From positions 35,426 to 99,425 of the forward strand of contig JAQTNK010000011.1 of the NCBI GenBank assembly GCA_028713915.1: a stretch of DNA of 64,000 bases, in the 5' to 3' direction. Position 1 is the first letter of the stretch. Every line of letters begins with the position of its first letter. Under the pieces are notes generated by a model, which saw only the letters and a list, made by a program, of their open reading frames with translations, was not told the DNA's origin and did not search any database. Of this stretch, positions 26,524-34,588 are shown one piece after another. Position numbers and translations under genes: made by a program. The stretch comes from Rhodocyclaceae bacterium. Its GTDB lineage: Bacteria; Pseudomonadota; Gammaproteobacteria; Burkholderiales; Rhodocyclaceae.

Positions 26524-26997
26524 TCACTGCACGGTGAAGCGGATCTCGGTCTCGCCCTGGCGATCGCGGTCGTCGCTGACGCGCAGGACGATGCGGTGAT
26601 TGCCGGCGGGAATGTTGGCGCTGTCCACGCTGATGCCCTCGGGCCCGACCTTGGCGCGGCCGGCCAGCCGCTCGGTGATGTCGACTTTCAGGAAGCCGTA
26701 GAGGGCGCGAAAGCTCTCCGGCTTGATGGTCGCGCCGTCCTGCGCCTTGAAGACGATGCGGATCGGGAAAGGTGCCTTGAGCGGCTCGGCCAGCGAAGCC
26801 GGCGATACCATGCTGATGTCCGGCGCGCCCGGCGCGAACGCCCGCGTCGTGAATTCGTCCGCCGCCGGATGCTGCTGCGCCCAGGCGGCGTCCTGCCGAG
26901 CTTCGTCGGGCGTCACCAGCCACGTCGGCTGCGCCAGCGCAGCGGCCGCACAGGCGATGGCGGCGAGCGCCAGCCACTTGGACGTTGTCGATTTCAT
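26524..26997 (-). CDS. Exported hypothetical protein, Ig-like/beta-rich
   Basis: Signal peptide MKSTTSKWLALAAIACAAAALA; 157 aa; 60 bp downstream of the CHAT-TPR gene on the same strand. Confidence 0.6.
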   Translation of the reverse strand: MKSTTSKWLALAAIACAAAALAQPTWLVTPDEARQDAAWAQQHPAADEFTTRAFAPGAPDISMVSPASLAEPLKAPFPIRIVFKAQDGATIKPESFRALYGFLKVDITERLAGRAKVGPEGISVDSANIPAGNHRIVLRVSDDRDRQGETEIRFTVQ

Positions 26998-27057
26998 GCT
27001 GCCTCCCGGCGCTGGTCGTGTGGCGGAATTGAACCCGATCGGCAGCGGCCTGGCAAG

Positions 27058-30042
27058 TCAGTCGCCGACATAGACGAAGGGCGCCCAGAAGTAGGGATGG
27101 CTGCGCGAGATCTTCTGCGCGCCGTCGCCGAGCGTGCCGCCGCGGATCAGGCTGCGGGCGTCTGCGAGCGCGGCGAGATTTTCCGCGCCGCCATGCAGGC
27201 GGCGGAACATCTCGGTCACGAGCTCCTGCGTCGAGCGGCTTTCGACGCTCCAGTGGCTGACCAGCAGGCCTTGCGCGCCGGCGTACATGAAGGCGCGGGT
27301 GAGGCCGGCGAAGCCTTCGCCGTCCTTGGCGGCGGCGCCCTCGCCGGCGGTATTGCAAGCGGAGAGCACCACCAGCTGGGCATTCAGGTCCATGCTGGCG
27401 ATGACCTCGCCCATCGTCAGCAGGCCGTCCTCGCCCTGCAGGTCGCCACCGAGGGAGAGCACCAGCGCCGGCTGGCCGTGCTCGGACGCGGCGGCGACGG
27501 GCGGCTCGTCGTCGCCAAGTTCCGGCAGCGCCGCGTCCGCCGGTGCCGCGGCGACGGCGATGTTGCGCGCGCCGCCGGCAGCGCCGTCGCGTTCCATGGC
27601 CGCCAGGGCGTCATGGACCTGCACGAACTCGCCGCCGAGCAGGCCGTGGGTGGCGAAATGCAGGTAGCGCGTGGTGCGCAAGTCGAGCGTCTTGGCGGTG
27701 TGTTCCTGCGCGCGTTCGCGCAGGAAGACGTCGCTGCGGCCGCCGAGGATGGTGGCGATGGCGCGCGCCTCGTCGGCCGTCTCGGGCAGGCGCGGAATGC
27801 TGAGGCTCGCCTCGTGGCGCACGCTGCGCGCCAGCACGGCGAGCGCCGCAGCGGCGGCCGGGGCGCGGCTGGCCTTCTCGAACAGCGGGTCGGCGAAAGA
27901 CACCAGCTCCTTGTCGTAGCGCACGGCCGGCTTGCGGTAGAGGCGCACCGAGGCCAGCGCCGACAGGCTCGGCAGATAGGCGAAGCGGTAATGCTCGCCG
28001 AGGTAAGGCAAGGTCGCGTATTCGGCCAGCGCCGGCCCGTTGCGCTGCGCGCGCGCGGCGGCAAAGGCGCGCTGCTCCGGCTCGCCGTAGCGCGTCACCA
28101 ACATTTCCAGCGGCAGCGTGTGCAGCGGCCCGTCGCCGATCACCAGCAGGCGCTGGCCGTCCTTGACGTACGGCAGCACCGGCTCGAACAAGGCGCCATA
28201 GAGCCGGTGCAAGTTGGCCGGATCGAGCCGGGCGAGATTGTCGAACGATGCCGCCGCGGCTTCTTCGGGTTGGCGCGCCGCGGCGATCCAGGCGGCGATG
28301 TCCTCGCGTGCGACCGGCGTCTGCAGCATGTGGAAGTCGTTCTTGGCGACGACGAAAATCAGCGCCGACTTCGGCAGCAGGAAATAGCTGAGCAGGGTTT
28401 CATCCGGCTTGAGCAATTGCTTTTGCAGCATGTCCACCGTCACCGGCCGCGGCTGCGTCAGCTCCATGTAGCGTGGATATTTTTCCCACAGCGCCGCCTC
28501 GGTGCGGGCGAGATCGCGCGCCGCCGTTTCGGTGTCGGCGGCGATGCTGGCGCGGTGGGCGTCGATGCGCGCCTGCACCAGCGGATCGGCCGGAGCGGCG
28601 GCGGTGGGCGGCGCGTCGTCGCCGGCCGCGGGCGCTTCCTTGCCGGCGAGGACGCGCGCCTGGCGCAGTTCGGCCAAGCGCGTCTTCTGCGCCAACTGGC
28701 GCGCGTGCAAGTCGTTGAACGCGGGATCAGCGGCGAGCTTGCCGGTGTCGGCCCGGCGCAGCAGTTCGGTAAACAGCCGGCTCTGCGTGCGCGACACCAC
28801 GGCCAGCGCCTCGCGGTCGTAGCCGGCCTGCGGCTGCGACCGGTGCAGTTGCGTGAGAAGCTGCAGCGCCTCGTAGTAGAAGGCGGCGAACTGGGCGACG
28901 AAATTCTCGCGCGTCGCTTCGTCGATGCCCTGCGTCTGCGCGAACAGGCGATCGACGGCATCGAGCGCGTTGCGGTAATGGGCGAGCGCCGCGACGGGTT
29001 GCTGTTGCGCGACGAGAAAGCGTCCCAGCAGCCGTTCGAAATTGGCCGTCGGCTCGAGCGCATCGGCGGCATGCGCGCTGTCTACGGCCCGTTGCAGCAG
29101 GGCGCCGGCCTCGTCGCCGCGGCCGCGCTGGGCCAGGGCGAGGCCGAGGAACATCGCCGCCTGGCCGGTGTCCTTGTGCGCCTTGCCAAGCTTGCGCTCG
29201 CCGATGGAAAGGGCGCGGCGCAAGGCGCTTTCAGCGGCGTCGAGACGGTGCAGGTGCAGCGCGGCGGTGCCGAGCACCGTCAGGCTCTGGACGAGATCCG
29301 GATTGTCGTCGCCGCCGCGCGCGGCTTGCGCAGCGACGGCGCGCTGCGCATGCGCGGCCGCGGCCTCGTTCTTGCCCTGCTGGAGGAAGAGGCGCGCCAG
29401 CTGGTAATCGGTCTTTTCGCGGTAGCGCGCAATCCACGCTTCCTCGCTGCGGCCGTCGCGGCTGTCTGCCGCCACGGCCGGAACGGCTTCGGCGCCGTGC
29501 AGCAGCGTCTCGGCCTCGGCATAGCGGCCGAGCTGGCGTTCGACGTTCGCCAGCGCGTTGTAGGCCTGGATCGCATCCTTGTCCCGCGGCGCCGCGGCGA
29601 GTTGGCGCTCGAGGGCATCGCGCAGCACGACCTCGGCGTCCTGAAAGCGCGACTGCGCCGTCAGCAGGTTGCCGAGATTGAGCAGGACGCGGATCGCCTG
29701 GAACGAGTCGCGGCCGTTGCCGCGCTCGACCAGGACCAGCGACTTGCGCAGGATGACTTCGGCATCGGCGAACTTGCCGCGCTGGCGCAGCACGCTGCCG
29801 AGGTTGCGGTAGGCGTTGCCGAGCATCTTCGGCGGGCCGCCGTTTTCCGCCAGGGCGACGCGCGCTCGCGCCAGGTCTTCGGCCAGCGCCAGGTCGCCGT
29901 CGCGCTCGGCCGCGGCAAAGCGGTCGCCCAAGTCGCGAAACTCGGCGCCATTGCCGCGCCGCCCGCCCTGGGCGGCGGCGCCGGCGGCCAGAACAGCCAG
30001 CAGCACGGCCGCGCCCAGGCGCAGCCTATGTCCGCGGTTCAT
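27058..30042 (-). CDS. Exported TPR + CHAT domain (caspase-like) protein
   Basis: Signal peptide MNRGHRLRLGAAVLLAVLAAGAAA; N-terminal TPRs (GNAYRNLGSVLRQRGKFADAEVILRKSL...); C-terminal CHAT with His in HFATHGLL (codon 27646-27648) and Cys in LSACNTAGEG (codon 27355-27357). Start trimmed from ORF start 30096. Confidence 0.9.
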   Translation of the reverse strand: MNRGHRLRLGAAVLLAVLAAGAAAQGGRRGNGAEFRDLGDRFAAAERDGDLALAEDLARARVALAENGGPPKMLGNAYRNLGSVLRQRGKFADAEVILRKSLVLVERGNGRDSFQAIRVLLNLGNLLTAQSRFQDAEVVLRDALERQLAAAPRDKDAIQAYNALANVERQLGRYAEAETLLHGAEAVPAVAADSRDGRSEEAWIARYREKTDYQLARLFLQQGKNEAAAAHAQRAVAAQAARGGDDNPDLVQSLTVLGTAALHLHRLDAAESALRRALSIGERKLGKAHKDTGQAAMFLGLALAQRGRGDEAGALLQRAVDSAHAADALEPTANFERLLGRFLVAQQQPVAALAHYRNALDAVDRLFAQTQGIDEATRENFVAQFAAFYYEALQLLTQLHRSQPQAGYDREALAVVSRTQSRLFTELLRRADTGKLAADPAFNDLHARQLAQKTRLAELRQARVLAGKEAPAAGDDAPPTAAAPADPLVQARIDAHRASIAADTETAARDLARTEAALWEKYPRYMELTQPRPVTVDMLQKQLLKPDETLLSYFLLPKSALIFVVAKNDFHMLQTPVAREDIAAWIAAARQPEEAAAASFDNLARLDPANLHRLYGALFEPVLPYVKDGQRLLVIGDGPLHTLPLEMLVTRYGEPEQRAFAAARAQRNGPALAEYATLPYLGEHYRFAYLPSLSALASVRLYRKPAVRYDKELVSFADPLFEKASRAPAAAAALAVLARSVRHEASLSIPRLPETADEARAIATILGGRSDVFLRERAQEHTAKTLDLRTTRYLHFATHGLLGGEFVQVHDALAAMERDGAAGGARNIAVAAAPADAALPELGDDEPPVAAASEHGQPALVLSLGGDLQGEDGLLTMGEVIASMDLNAQLVVLSACNTAGEGAAAKDGEGFAGLTRAFMYAGAQGLLVSHWSVESRSTQELVTEMFRRLHGGAENLAALADARSLIRGGTLGDGAQKISRSHPYFWAPFVYVGD

Positions 30043-30171
30043 CGTCGATCCCTCGCCGTGGCGCCCGCGCACATCCGCCAGCCATGACGGCTGCAAGCTG
30101 GTGAAGACATCCCGCCCTTTCCCGCGTCCTTATTACGTTTATCATACCGCCGTCGCCCTCGACCCTCTACC

Positions 30172-31860
30172 ATGTTCGACAAGCTCCGCAATCGCTGGGC
30201 CCGTGGCAGCGCCTGGCTGGTCCGCCGCATGGGCGCCGGCGCCTATCTGTGGCTGGCGGCGGCGGTGTCCTTGTTCGTCGTCATCGACTTCGCCGCGCTG
30301 CACCTGGTCGGCACGATGGAAAGCCGGGTGTTCGACCTGCTCATGTCGCATCGCCTGCGCGCGCCGGCGCCCGACCCCGACATCGTCATCGTCGATATCG
30401 ACGAAGCCAGCCTGGCCGCCATGGCGCCGGATTTCGGCCGCTGGCCCTGGCCGAACGAGGTGTTCGGCGAGTTCGTCGCCGGCATCGAGGCGCAGCAGCC
30501 CAAGGCCATCGTCTTCGACATCCTCTTCAGCGACGCCGACGTCCTGCGGCCCGACAGCGACGCCGCTTTCAACGCTGCCGTCGCCGCCAGCCGCCACAGC
30601 TTCTTCCCGATGCTGCGGCTGGGACCGCAGAACGACGCCTTGAGCCAGATCCGGCCAAGCATGCTGCCCGGCGTCGCGCCCCTGCCCGGCGCAACGGCGC
30701 TTGACCGGCCGCTGGCCATCGTCCTGCCGCACGTGCCGGCGGCCATCGCCAACGGCCGCCTCGGCACGCACAACGTCGAGCCCGATAAGGACGGCGTCAT
30801 ACGGCGCTACCCGTTCCGCCTCGAGCACGCCGGCTGGGGCATCCCGGCGCTGCCGAGCCGCGTCGCCGCGGCGCTCGGCGCGGCGGTGCCGGACCAGCGC
30901 AGCTTCCTCATCAACTGGCGCGGCAAGCCCTTCACCTACCCTTACGTTTCCTTCGCCGCCGTCTACCGCGACTTGCTGCGCCAGCATCGCCAGCGTCCGG
31001 CCGGCGAATTCGCCGGCAAGATCGTGGTGATCGGCGCGACGGCGGCGAGCCTCTTCGACCTCAAGGCCTCGCCGATGGCGAAAATCCATCCCGGCGTCGA
31101 AGTCCTGGCCACCGCCATCGACAACGTCCGGCGCGGCGACTGGCTGCGCGAGCAGCCGCCGTGGCTGACGCTGGCCATCAGCCTGGCGTTCATCTGGGGC
31201 ATGGCCGTCGCGCTGGCCCGCCGCGCGCCGGTGGATGCCTTCAACAGCGCCTTCACGGCGATGCAGGTGGTGTTCGCCGGCGTCTCCTACGCGACGCTGA
31301 ATCTGTCGCCGTATTACCTCGACATGTCGGCGCCGATCACGCTCGGGCTGGTCTATTTCTCGCTCGCCCGCGGCTATGCCAACCTCAGCCGGCGCTGGCT
31401 GGCGAACGGCCTGCGCTTTGCCGTCGAGGACCGCCCGCAGGGCACGTGCCGCATGACGCTGTTGAGCGTCCGCCTCGATGCGCCGCTGCGCGCCGAGCGC
31501 CGCCGCATGAAGGCGGCGCTCGACCGGCTGGTGGCCGACTCGCCGCTGCAGGCGAGCCGGATCGACCAGTTGATCGAGGATCCCGGCCTCGTGCGCAGCG
31601 TCTTCGACGACATCACGCTGATCTACTGGCTGACCGATGTGCACGAGGATGCCGCCGGCGATGCGCGGCGCATCGAGGCCGGCCTGCGGCAGGCATTGCC
31701 AAAGGCGGCGGCCGCGGGCAGACTCGCGTTTTTCGATGCCGGCGGCGAGCTGCGCTGGGAGGCGGCGCGCGGCTGGCGGAGCGCTGCCTACCGCACCATT
31801 CTGGCCGCCCTGGCGGGCATGGCGCCGGCCGCCGGGGCCATATCGAGCGGCGCGAAATAG
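30172..31860 (+). CDS. CHASE2-domain transmembrane protein with unassigned C-terminal domain
   Basis: N-terminal TM, CHASE2 (DPDIVIVDIDEASLAAMAPDFGRWPWPNEVF...VVIGATAASLFDLKASPMAKIHPGVEVLATAIDNV), three TMs, then ~150 aa with no kinase, cyclase or phosphatase motif. Confidence 0.87.
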   Translation: MFDKLRNRWARGSAWLVRRMGAGAYLWLAAAVSLFVVIDFAALHLVGTMESRVFDLLMSHRLRAPAPDPDIVIVDIDEASLAAMAPDFGRWPWPNEVFGEFVAGIEAQQPKAIVFDILFSDADVLRPDSDAAFNAAVAASRHSFFPMLRLGPQNDALSQIRPSMLPGVAPLPGATALDRPLAIVLPHVPAAIANGRLGTHNVEPDKDGVIRRYPFRLEHAGWGIPALPSRVAAALGAAVPDQRSFLINWRGKPFTYPYVSFAAVYRDLLRQHRQRPAGEFAGKIVVIGATAASLFDLKASPMAKIHPGVEVLATAIDNVRRGDWLREQPPWLTLAISLAFIWGMAVALARRAPVDAFNSAFTAMQVVFAGVSYATLNLSPYYLDMSAPITLGLVYFSLARGYANLSRRWLANGLRFAVEDRPQGTCRMTLLSVRLDAPLRAERRRMKAALDRLVADSPLQASRIDQLIEDPGLVRSVFDDITLIYWLTDVHEDAAGDARRIEAGLRQALPKAAAAGRLAFFDAGGELRWEAARGWRSAAYRTILAALAGMAPAAGAISSGAK

Positions 31861-31870
31861 GGGAGACGAC

Positions 31871-33736
31871 ATGCGTTCACGGCAATACCTGGCCATTTTC
31901 GGCGCGACGCTGGCGCTCGCGCTTTGCGGCGGCGCCTGGGCGGAAACCCAGACCTTGCATCAGCGCGCCGAACTCAAGGACGCGAAGTTCATCGACGCCG
32001 CCACCGTGGCCGTGCTCGAGGCGAACACGCGCATCGACATCCTGCGGCGCGACGGCGGCTGGATTCTGGTGAAAGCGGGCGCCCGCCAGGGCTGGCTGCG
32101 CAACGAGGCGCTCGGCGCCGGCGCCGGCGGCCTGCTGGCGCTGGAGAACGGCCGCAGCGGCGGCGGCGACCTCATCGCGACCACCGGCATCCGCGGCCTC
32201 AGCAAGCCGCCGTCGGCGCAGACGCATGCCCTGATCATGGCCATCGGCGCCTACGAAAAACCCTTCGAGCTCGACGGCGTCGCCCACGACGTCGACACCG
32301 CGCGCGACGTCGCCCACCGCATGGGCGTGACCGACGCCAACCTGCACGTGCTGCGCGACGGCGAACTCACGCTGGACGGCATGCGCGCCGCCTTCGATGC
32401 GCTCGAGGCGAGCCTGGTCGACAACGACCAGGTGTTCATCTACTACTCGGGCCACGGCGGCCGCCAGCTCGTCAAGGAGGCGGATGGCGGCGAGCGCTGC
32501 GCCGAGTCGCTGATCTCGGTCGACGGCCAGGCCTTCATCGACGCCGAGCTGGAGGCGCGGCTGAAGCGCATTGCCGCCAAGGCGCAGAAGGTCGTCATGT
32601 TCATCGACGCCTGCCATTCCGGCGGCGTCACCACGCGCGGCGTGAAAGCCGCCGGCGAGTACAAAGGCAAGTCGTGGAACGGCAAGGGCGCCGGTGCCGA
32701 AGGCTGCGCCAAGCCGGTCAACGTGCTGACGCGCGGCATCGCGCTGGCCGCCAAGTCCGCCGGCAGCGGCGGCAACAACTTCGCCTACATCGCCGCGGCG
32801 CGCGACAACGAAGTGTCGCTCGACCAGGCCAGCAAGGGCGGCGTCGCCTCGCAGGCGTGGGGCGCCTGCATGGCCGGCGCCGCCAAGGATGTCGACGGCA
32901 GCGGCGGGCTGTCGGTGGAAGAAATCCGCGCCTGCGCCCAGGCGCGCATCGACAACCAGTTGCGCAACGCCACGGGCTTCCTGCCGCATCACGTCACCAT
33001 CACCGGCAATCCGGACCTGGTGTTGAACTACGCGGCGAAAGAGGCCGCGCCGGAGCCGTCGGCGCCCGTGGCGGCACCGGCGATGGCAGCGCCGGCGGCT
33101 GCCGCGACGCCGGTAGCGGCGCCGGCCGTCACAGTTCCTCCGGCGGCGGCGCCGCCCGTCGCGGCCATCGTCGCGCCGCCGGCCGCCGCGCCCAGGCCGT
33201 CGCCGTTCGCCGCGCTCAACGACATCTACCACAACCGCGACGATCGCCGCCTGGTGACGCTCACGGCGGCGCGCCCGTCGCTGCGCATCGGCCAGGACAA
33301 CCTCGATGTCAAGGTGACGTCGCGCGAAGCCGGTTATCTCTATGTCATGATGGTCGGCTCGGACGGCGAGGCCTTCGACCTGCTGTTTCCGAACCAGATC
33401 GACCGCAACAACCTGATCCAGGCCGGCGACACGCTGCGCCTGCCGCGCCCGGGCTGGCAGCTGGCGGCGCAGGGACCGGCGGGCAAGGATGCGCTGCTGG
33501 CCATCGTCACCGACGCGCCGCGCGATTTCGCGAAGGCCGGGCTGAAGCCGGCCGGGCCGTTCTCGGTGGTCGAAGCCGTCGCCGCCAAGGACATCCAGCT
33601 CGTCACCGCCACCTCGGCGCAGGCCGACAAGGACGAATGCAGCAACCGGCGGCAGACGCGCAACATCGCCGTGCAGAAGAGCTGCTCCGGCGCTTACGGC
33701 GCGGCGCTGCTGACCATCGAGGAAGTCGCGCCCTAG
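31871..33736 (+). CDS. Exported caspase-family (C14) peptidase with SH3b-like N-terminus, EF-hand loop and DUF4384-like C-terminus
   Basis: Signal peptide MRSRQYLAIFGATLALALCGGAWA; dyad His in YYSGHGG (32453-32455) and Cys in IDACHSGG (32612-32614); EF-hand-like DVDGSGGLSVEE; Ala/Pro linker; 10-bp gap from CHASE2 gene. Confidence 0.88.
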   Translation: MRSRQYLAIFGATLALALCGGAWAETQTLHQRAELKDAKFIDAATVAVLEANTRIDILRRDGGWILVKAGARQGWLRNEALGAGAGGLLALENGRSGGGDLIATTGIRGLSKPPSAQTHALIMAIGAYEKPFELDGVAHDVDTARDVAHRMGVTDANLHVLRDGELTLDGMRAAFDALEASLVDNDQVFIYYSGHGGRQLVKEADGGERCAESLISVDGQAFIDAELEARLKRIAAKAQKVVMFIDACHSGGVTTRGVKAAGEYKGKSWNGKGAGAEGCAKPVNVLTRGIALAAKSAGSGGNNFAYIAAARDNEVSLDQASKGGVASQAWGACMAGAAKDVDGSGGLSVEEIRACAQARIDNQLRNATGFLPHHVTITGNPDLVLNYAAKEAAPEPSAPVAAPAMAAPAAAATPVAAPAVTVPPAAAPPVAAIVAPPAAAPRPSPFAALNDIYHNRDDRRLVTLTAARPSLRIGQDNLDVKVTSREAGYLYVMMVGSDGEAFDLLFPNQIDRNNLIQAGDTLRLPRPGWQLAAQGPAGKDALLAIVTDAPRDFAKAGLKPAGPFSVVEAVAAKDIQLVTATSAQADKDECSNRRQTRNIAVQKSCSGAYGAALLTIEEVAP

Positions 33737-33745
33737 GAGCCCGCC

Positions 33746-34588
33746 ATGAAGACTCGAACCACCGCTCGCCTCGCCGCGCTGCTGCTCGCCGCCAGCTTTG
33801 CCGTCCAGGCGCCGGCGCAGACGCCGGCCGCCGGTACGCCGAGCGCCGACGAGGAGGTCAAGCCCAAGTTCATCTGGGGCATCCTGATCAACATCGCCCT
33901 CAAGTACGCGCTGCCGGCTTTCAGCAGCTACCTGACGGGAAAGCTGACCGAACTGTTGACGCCCGAATCGCTGGCGGCGATGCTCGTGCATAGCAAGAGC
34001 GCGAACATCGTGCCGCTCGCCAGCGTCGCGCCGCGCGGCCTTGCCGCCAAGTCGGCGGGCGCTCCCGAAAACGCGGCGGCCGGCGAGCCGACCGCGCCGC
34101 TGCGGGTCGACAACGGGCACGAGAACTACCAGGCCGTGCATGTCGCGCTGTTGAACTTCGACCGCAACGGCAATGCCCGCGGCTTCCATCCCGTCAGCGC
34201 CGGCTTCGCCACCGGCGAGCGCTTCAAGCTGCGCGTGCTGCCGACCTTCGACGGCGTCCTCGTCATCGACAACATCAATCCGCGCCGCGAGCGCCGGCAG
34301 ATCTATCCGGCGCAGGCCGAGAACGTCGTGCAGATCAAGGCCGGCATCGAAATCCTGATTCCGCTCGACAAGGACCAATACTTCGAATTCACCGGCGACG
34401 GCGGCGACGAGCAGCTCGTCGTCACGGTGCGCGACCCGCGCGCCTTCGGCACCGCCGCCGCCACCGCGCCGGTGACGCGCAAGGACGAGAACAACGGCTC
34501 GAACTTCATGCAGCAAGTCACCCCCGACACCTATCCGGTGATTTCGCAGTCCTTGCACATCCGGCACGACGCCGTCGCGGGACAGTAG
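33746..34588 (+). CDS. Exported protein with DUF4384-like beta domain
   Basis: Signal peptide MKTRTTARLAALLLAASFAVQAPA; YQAVHVALLNFDRNGNARGFHPVSAGFATGERFKLRVLPTFDGVLVIDNINP; 9 bp after caspase gene. Confidence 0.65.
   Translation: MKTRTTARLAALLLAASFAVQAPAQTPAAGTPSADEEVKPKFIWGILINIALKYALPAFSSYLTGKLTELLTPESLAAMLVHSKSANIVPLASVAPRGLAAKSAGAPENAAAGEPTAPLRVDNGHENYQAVHVALLNFDRNGNARGFHPVSAGFATGERFKLRVLPTFDGVLVIDNINPRRERRQIYPAQAENVVQIKAGIEILIPLDKDQYFEFTGDGGDEQLVVTVRDPRAFGTAAATAPVTRKDENNGSNFMQQVTPDTYPVISQSLHIRHDAVAGQ

Follow-up and report, generated by a model that had tools for sequence, protein, structure and literature searches.

In bacteria, caspases and CHAT proteases are usually described as cytoplasmic enzymes of immunity or cell death. 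We asked what a locus might do that encodes a caspase and a TPR-CHAT protein, both with apparent export signals, beside a CHASE2 membrane protein. The locus lies in a 64,000-nucleotide stretch of Rhodocyclaceae DNA (the window) from a host assembly of 3.84 Mb in 74 contigs that is 99.87% complete. Its two arms diverge from an intergenic region of 129 bp (30043-30171, by gene ends). The minus strand encodes an exported TPR-CHAT protein of 994 aa (27058-30042; CHAT 8.8e-52 and TPR repeats in Pfam) and a small exported protein of 157 aa (26524-26997) that had no Pfam, NCBIfam or PADLOC match. The plus strand encodes a CHASE2 membrane protein of 562 aa (30172-31860; PF05226, 1.1e-50), an exported orthocaspase of 621 aa (31871-33736; PF00656 Peptidase_C14, 3.7e-16, and PF14326 DUF4384, 3e-17) and an exported protein of 280 aa, here called DUF4384-solo (33746-34588; PF14326, 4.8e-7), with gaps of 10 and 9 bp between the three genes. 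Open reading frames and Pfam searches bore out the five genes, coordinates and domains given in a first-pass annotation of this DNA. Against NCBIfam and PADLOC the window proteins gave weak or generic matches only. Membership of a defence system was considered and rejected, PADLOC having returned a generic caspase match and a weak TPR match only. A scan of the locus for sigma-70-like promoters found none, the GC-rich DNA making such a scan uninformative.

The annotation had assigned signal peptides to all four soluble products, which we judged by eye and by hydropathy. By eye all four were Sec-like, with an A-x-A-like site in each; by hydropathy three of the four had a hydrophobic N-terminal segment and passed the cutoff, whereas DUF4384-solo fell below it. 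The claim that both caspase-fold proteins keep their His/Cys dyads held up in alignments of relatives: the caspase dyad H195/C248 (YYSGHGG / DACHSGG) was kept in every close relative covering these sites, and the CHAT dyad (HFATHG / LSACNT) in every relative covering it.

Architecture of the caspase, DUF4384-solo and CHASE2 proteins

From its N-terminus, the orthocaspase consists of a signal peptide, an SH3-like part, the C14 p20 domain (PF00656, 60 bits against a curated cutoff of 21.4), an EF-hand-like loop (DVDGSGGLSVEE, residues 340-351), a Pro/Ala linker and DUF4384. The loop is mostly conserved, single positions being altered in few relatives. Metacaspases are among its nearest neighbours in solved structures, and by analogy with them the enzyme is probably calcium-dependent. 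An EACC1-type caspase model scored 24.7 bits on this protein against a cutoff of 140, and no EACC domain match was obtained with Pfam or NCBIfam.

DUF4384-solo is the most specific marker of the module. A signal peptide is followed by a P-K-F-I-W motif with a helix (45-67), a linker and a beta domain with DUF4384 (154-226); a P-K-F-I-W-like motif starts the helix in nearly all family members, and orthologues are 36-78% identical. The structural model, of modest confidence (pLDDT 66), contains the beta domain and the N-terminal helix 45-67, the latter in a low-confidence stretch, and no conserved cleavage site was seen in the linker among aligned relatives.

The CHASE2 protein has an N-terminal transmembrane segment (about 20-50), a periplasmic CHASE2 domain (37-344) and then further transmembrane helices; hydropathy gave segments at 20-50 and 330-350, with the CHASE2 domain between transmembrane helices. 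Orthologues in other genera are 49-54% identical, and a search of the family found them in three other genera at 50-55% identity. The C-terminus, about 130 aa, was modelled, again with modest confidence, as a cytoplasmic ferredoxin-like domain (pLDDT 64). No Pfam match to an output domain (kinase, cyclase, GGDEF) was found C-terminal to CHASE2, and a fold search of this region returned weak diguanylate-cyclase-like and ferredoxin-like matches, none at E<=0.001. A search of DUF4384-solo against the PDB likewise gave no match at E<=0.001, and for both proteins we therefore make no fold claim past secondary structure.

CHASE2 genes were also observed in other settings. In G484 (L121:2603-9162), CHASE2 and two SH3-like genes are divergent from MlaE and MCE genes in a stretch without a caspase. 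In a relative that has no caspase (L038:7383-9793, L039:8435-10830), the CHASE2 gene precedes a short SH3-like gene whose product resembles the N-terminal part of the caspase, as well as a lipoprotein-like gene. A CHASE2-adenylate cyclase gene (L033:6028-7815) lies directly upstream of the MCE-form operon described below in G069, and the arrangement is similar in L052 and L074.

The core recurs beside an MCE module or a TPR-CHAT gene

The annotation had staked its reading on these genes being found together outside this strain, and we looked for such loci; the outcome did not refute it. A core of exported caspase with EF-hand loop and DUF4384 tail, exported DUF4384-solo and usually CHASE2 was present in about 15 loci from Rhodocyclaceae, Comamonadaceae, Gallionella and Protistobacter. 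CHASE2, caspase and DUF4384 genes were contiguous or within one gene run across many genera, and wherever else the MCE module was not intact (five loci) TPR-CHAT stood next to the core. A search of named genomes with a DUF4384-solo alignment gave ten loci, some of them being contigs already among the family-genome loci; the nearest named relatives of this marker protein are Rhodocyclaceae/Rhodocyclales MAGs.

The loci took two main forms. In the MCE form, four further genes accompany the core: those for a MlaE permease, an ABC-like protein that lacks Walker A, an MCE protein and a TPR lipoprotein. No CHAT gene was seen there; this form was found in eight loci (L033, L034, L035/L036, L052 from Sulfuritalea, L053 from Hylemonella, L055 and L056 from Comamonadaceae, and L074, which is the same as L050). 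In the CHAT form there is no intact MCE module; it comprised six loci (the window, L054 from Curvibacter, L057 from Protistobacter, L075, L076 and L079). L058 from Gallionella had both CHAT and the MCE module, and L073 (the same as L049), which belongs to the same genus as the window, runs into a contig end and was omitted from these counts. Of the three caspase genes at the Gallionella locus, one (L058:14944-16791) is fused to a sulfatase-modifying-factor domain.

Within the family, three other genera had CHASE2 and caspase in one gene run with MlaE, the ABC-like protein (~210 aa), MCE and TPR lipoprotein genes. In two of the three the DUF4384-solo gene stood at one end of this run; none was found in the MCE-form genome G014. 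MlaE (2.6e-40) and MlaD (6.6e-13) matches in core gene runs were above Pfam cutoffs. Profile searches of the PDB related the ABC-like subunit to ABC transporters (best 4.1e-8), and hhalign matched it to the MlaF-like ATPase of the host with a probability of 86%. However, the Walker A/P-loop was absent from all copies covering the region, and active transport by this form is therefore doubtful.

The divergent caspase/CHAT layout of the window recurs in L075 and L079, where TPR-CHAT orthologues (927 and 671 bits, respectively) are divergent from caspase-DUF4384. CHASE2 is missing from these same two loci, and, together with the DUF4384-solo gene not found in G014, this indicates that not every part is essential. 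The earlier view of the five genes as one module was thus borne out in part: CHASE2 can be missing, and the small exported protein was unseen in the relatives examined, its single-sequence profile having matched nothing in the other loci annotated. The latter gene is separated from the CHAT gene by 60 bp and may possibly be co-transcribed with it.

Two further gene neighbourhoods with DUF4384 genes were observed. A protein of 1363 aa with M23 peptidase, transglycosylase and Kazal inhibitor domains is encoded beside two DUF4384 genes (L080:10132-14223), and in L077 an M23/TIG protein and a CHAT protein are encoded near a DUF4384-caspase pair.

Exchange of the accessory part

CHAT adjoined the core in six of six loci without an intact MCE module and in one of nine with one (Fisher p = 0.0014, uncorrected for relatedness, in a sample that is small, related, partly MAG-derived and includes contigs cut short). 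In the caspase tree, CHAT-form loci were scattered and supported branches force at least 2 changes; since the CHAT-linked loci do not form one clade, the accessory parts have been exchanged. A genome-wide search with a profile of the caspase-type MCE protein detected this protein in all four of the MCE-form genomes searched (E 1e-144 to 1e-181), and not in the CHAT-type genomes G000 (the window's own), G288 and G391 or in G132. Weaker matches were a separate locus in G484, a distant match in the Curvibacter genome and a relic in Protistobacter. At this last locus, relics of MCE and lipoprotein genes with stops or frameshifts adjoin the CHAT-linked core; the locus is in general decay, and its CHAT gene is broken too. 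In the window, tblastn found no MCE-module genes or relics, and the window genome had other MCE loci only, including intact Mla-type loci elsewhere.

TPR-CHAT orthologues also occurred away from any caspase (G087, G136, G166 and G024), and in G073 one was found with CHASE2 and another exported gene. The CHAT arm is an optional partner of the core, and the MCE module is the commoner one. A row of CHASE2, an exported 283-aa protein and a TPR-CHAT protein was observed in L107:8366-13782, and a related CHAT protein in L108 and L109.

Relation to known systems

Single-protein fusions of caspase and CHASE2 are known in cyanobacteria (PMC2853523, PMC3501461), and EACC2-caspase proteins with C-terminal CHASE2 have also been described (PMC8195603). 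The window locus resembles these orthocaspases/metacaspases in linking a caspase p20 domain with His/Cys dyad to a CHASE2 sensor. In contrast to the fusions, it encodes CHASE2 and caspase as two proteins, the caspase with a signal peptide, and thus both should face the periplasm; it also has no EACC domain match, and the partners of the module are DUF4384-solo plus MCE or CHAT genes. The MCE form shares a MlaE permease, an MCE protein and a MlaF-like subunit with Mla/MCE systems (MlaFEDCB, Pqi-type) but differs from them in that the ABC subunit has no Walker A and that caspase, CHASE2 and DUF4384 genes are interleaved; the window is without this whole part. Like the TPR-CHAT of Craspase, the window protein has TPR repeats followed by a CHAT domain with a His/Cys dyad; unlike it, the protein has a signal peptide and an exported caspase as partner, and no CRISPR genes were seen in the locus. 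The BiofilmReg operon encodes a LysM-FecR protein with a CHASE2 histidine kinase (PMC5192318) and is similar in pairing a CHASE2 protein with an exported partner in Betaproteobacteria, whereas the window locus has no histidine kinase, response regulator, LysM or FecR. No published description of CHASE2/caspase combined with DUF4384-solo, MCE and CHAT was found in the literature searched, mostly papers available without subscription.

Possible roles of the locus

We tentatively favour a reading, to which we give slightly less than an even chance with its mechanism included, in which the window locus represents the CHAT form of an envelope caspase module that is rare and conserved and has exchanged its accessory part, either an MCE assembly or TPR-CHAT, in evolution. 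On the periplasmic side of the inner membrane, the CHASE2 protein would sense or scaffold. The caspase would act in the periplasm, probably with a need for calcium and, as in metacaspases, a preference for Arg/Lys before the cut, and may be docked through its SH3-like and DUF4384 parts; DUF4384-solo would be its dedicated partner or substrate, and TPR-CHAT a second protease or adaptor filling the output role that the MCE module plays elsewhere. A more specific version appears quite unlikely: CHASE2 would gate the exported calcium-dependent caspase, DUF4384-solo would be cut in its linker so that a conserved hydrophobic helix is freed onto the membrane, and the CHAT protease or an ATPase-dead MCE bridge would be interchangeable. 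The first-pass annotation had proposed an envelope-sensing proteolytic module. Conserved N-terminal signal sequences and the MCE/Mla linkage speak for its envelope setting, and its CHAT arm proved optional and swappable rather than a fixed part. Envelope sensing is thus plausible; the signal for CHASE2, the protease substrates and any cascade are what we infer.

The plus arm could instead be the real module, with TPR-CHAT an unrelated neighbour that is common in these genomes. Most family genomes with CHAT orthologues have them in other contexts, G000 and G288 being the only two among ten that were seen to have one beside the caspase, and in the same-genus genome G132, a fragmented assembly, no TPR-CHAT orthologue was found. 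We nevertheless regard a chance neighbour as somewhat unlikely, since CHAT flanks the core in every locus without an intact MCE module, across several families, with different CHAT subtypes and in three orientations (divergent, convergent and same strand). Another possible role is envelope maintenance: together with the DUF4384 protein, the exported proteases would build a lipid-trafficking bridge or control its quality, and the CHAT form, having lost or replaced its dedicated transporter, would use the cell's own Mla systems. Such a role would account for the genes for MCE, MlaE and TPR lipoprotein that accompany the core in eight loci, the intact Mla-type loci elsewhere in the host genome and the CHASE2 and SH3-like genes that face a MlaE/MCE pair in G484. 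The window locus itself has no lipid-transport gene, though, and with active transport in doubt for want of Walker A we hold this role to be unlikely.

That the two proteases kill infected cells, as part of an anti-phage or programmed-death system, seems very unlikely. Both kinds of protease have known roles in bacterial immunity, the TPR-CHAT of Craspase being one example (PMC9729208), and PADLOC's generic caspase model matched window protein P0004 (1.8e-15). Against this, the products carry predicted export signals, the five proteins gave one weak TPR match in PADLOC besides the generic caspase, the locus has no STAND NTPase or EACC gene, and searches of plasmids and viral contigs gave no match. 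The favoured envelope module, if real, would place caspases and CHAT proteases in the periplasm, tying caspase proteolysis to envelope lipid trafficking, and would give DUF4384 proteins and CHASE2 proteins without known output domain a defined, testable setting. The coupling of one core to either of two partners suggests that bacteria use caspases in the cell envelope in a way not yet described.

Distribution

The module is rare. The DUF4384-solo marker was found in 9 of 399 family genomes, a count that includes the window's own genome and two weak matches. The order sample, of 399 genomes, added one more, and the class and phylum samples yielded none besides the window's own. A mobile origin was considered and rejected, DUF4384-solo having no match on plasmids and the caspase none on viral contigs. 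Outside the locus, the window genome contains four more Peptidase_C14 matches, on contigs C1, C8 and C16.
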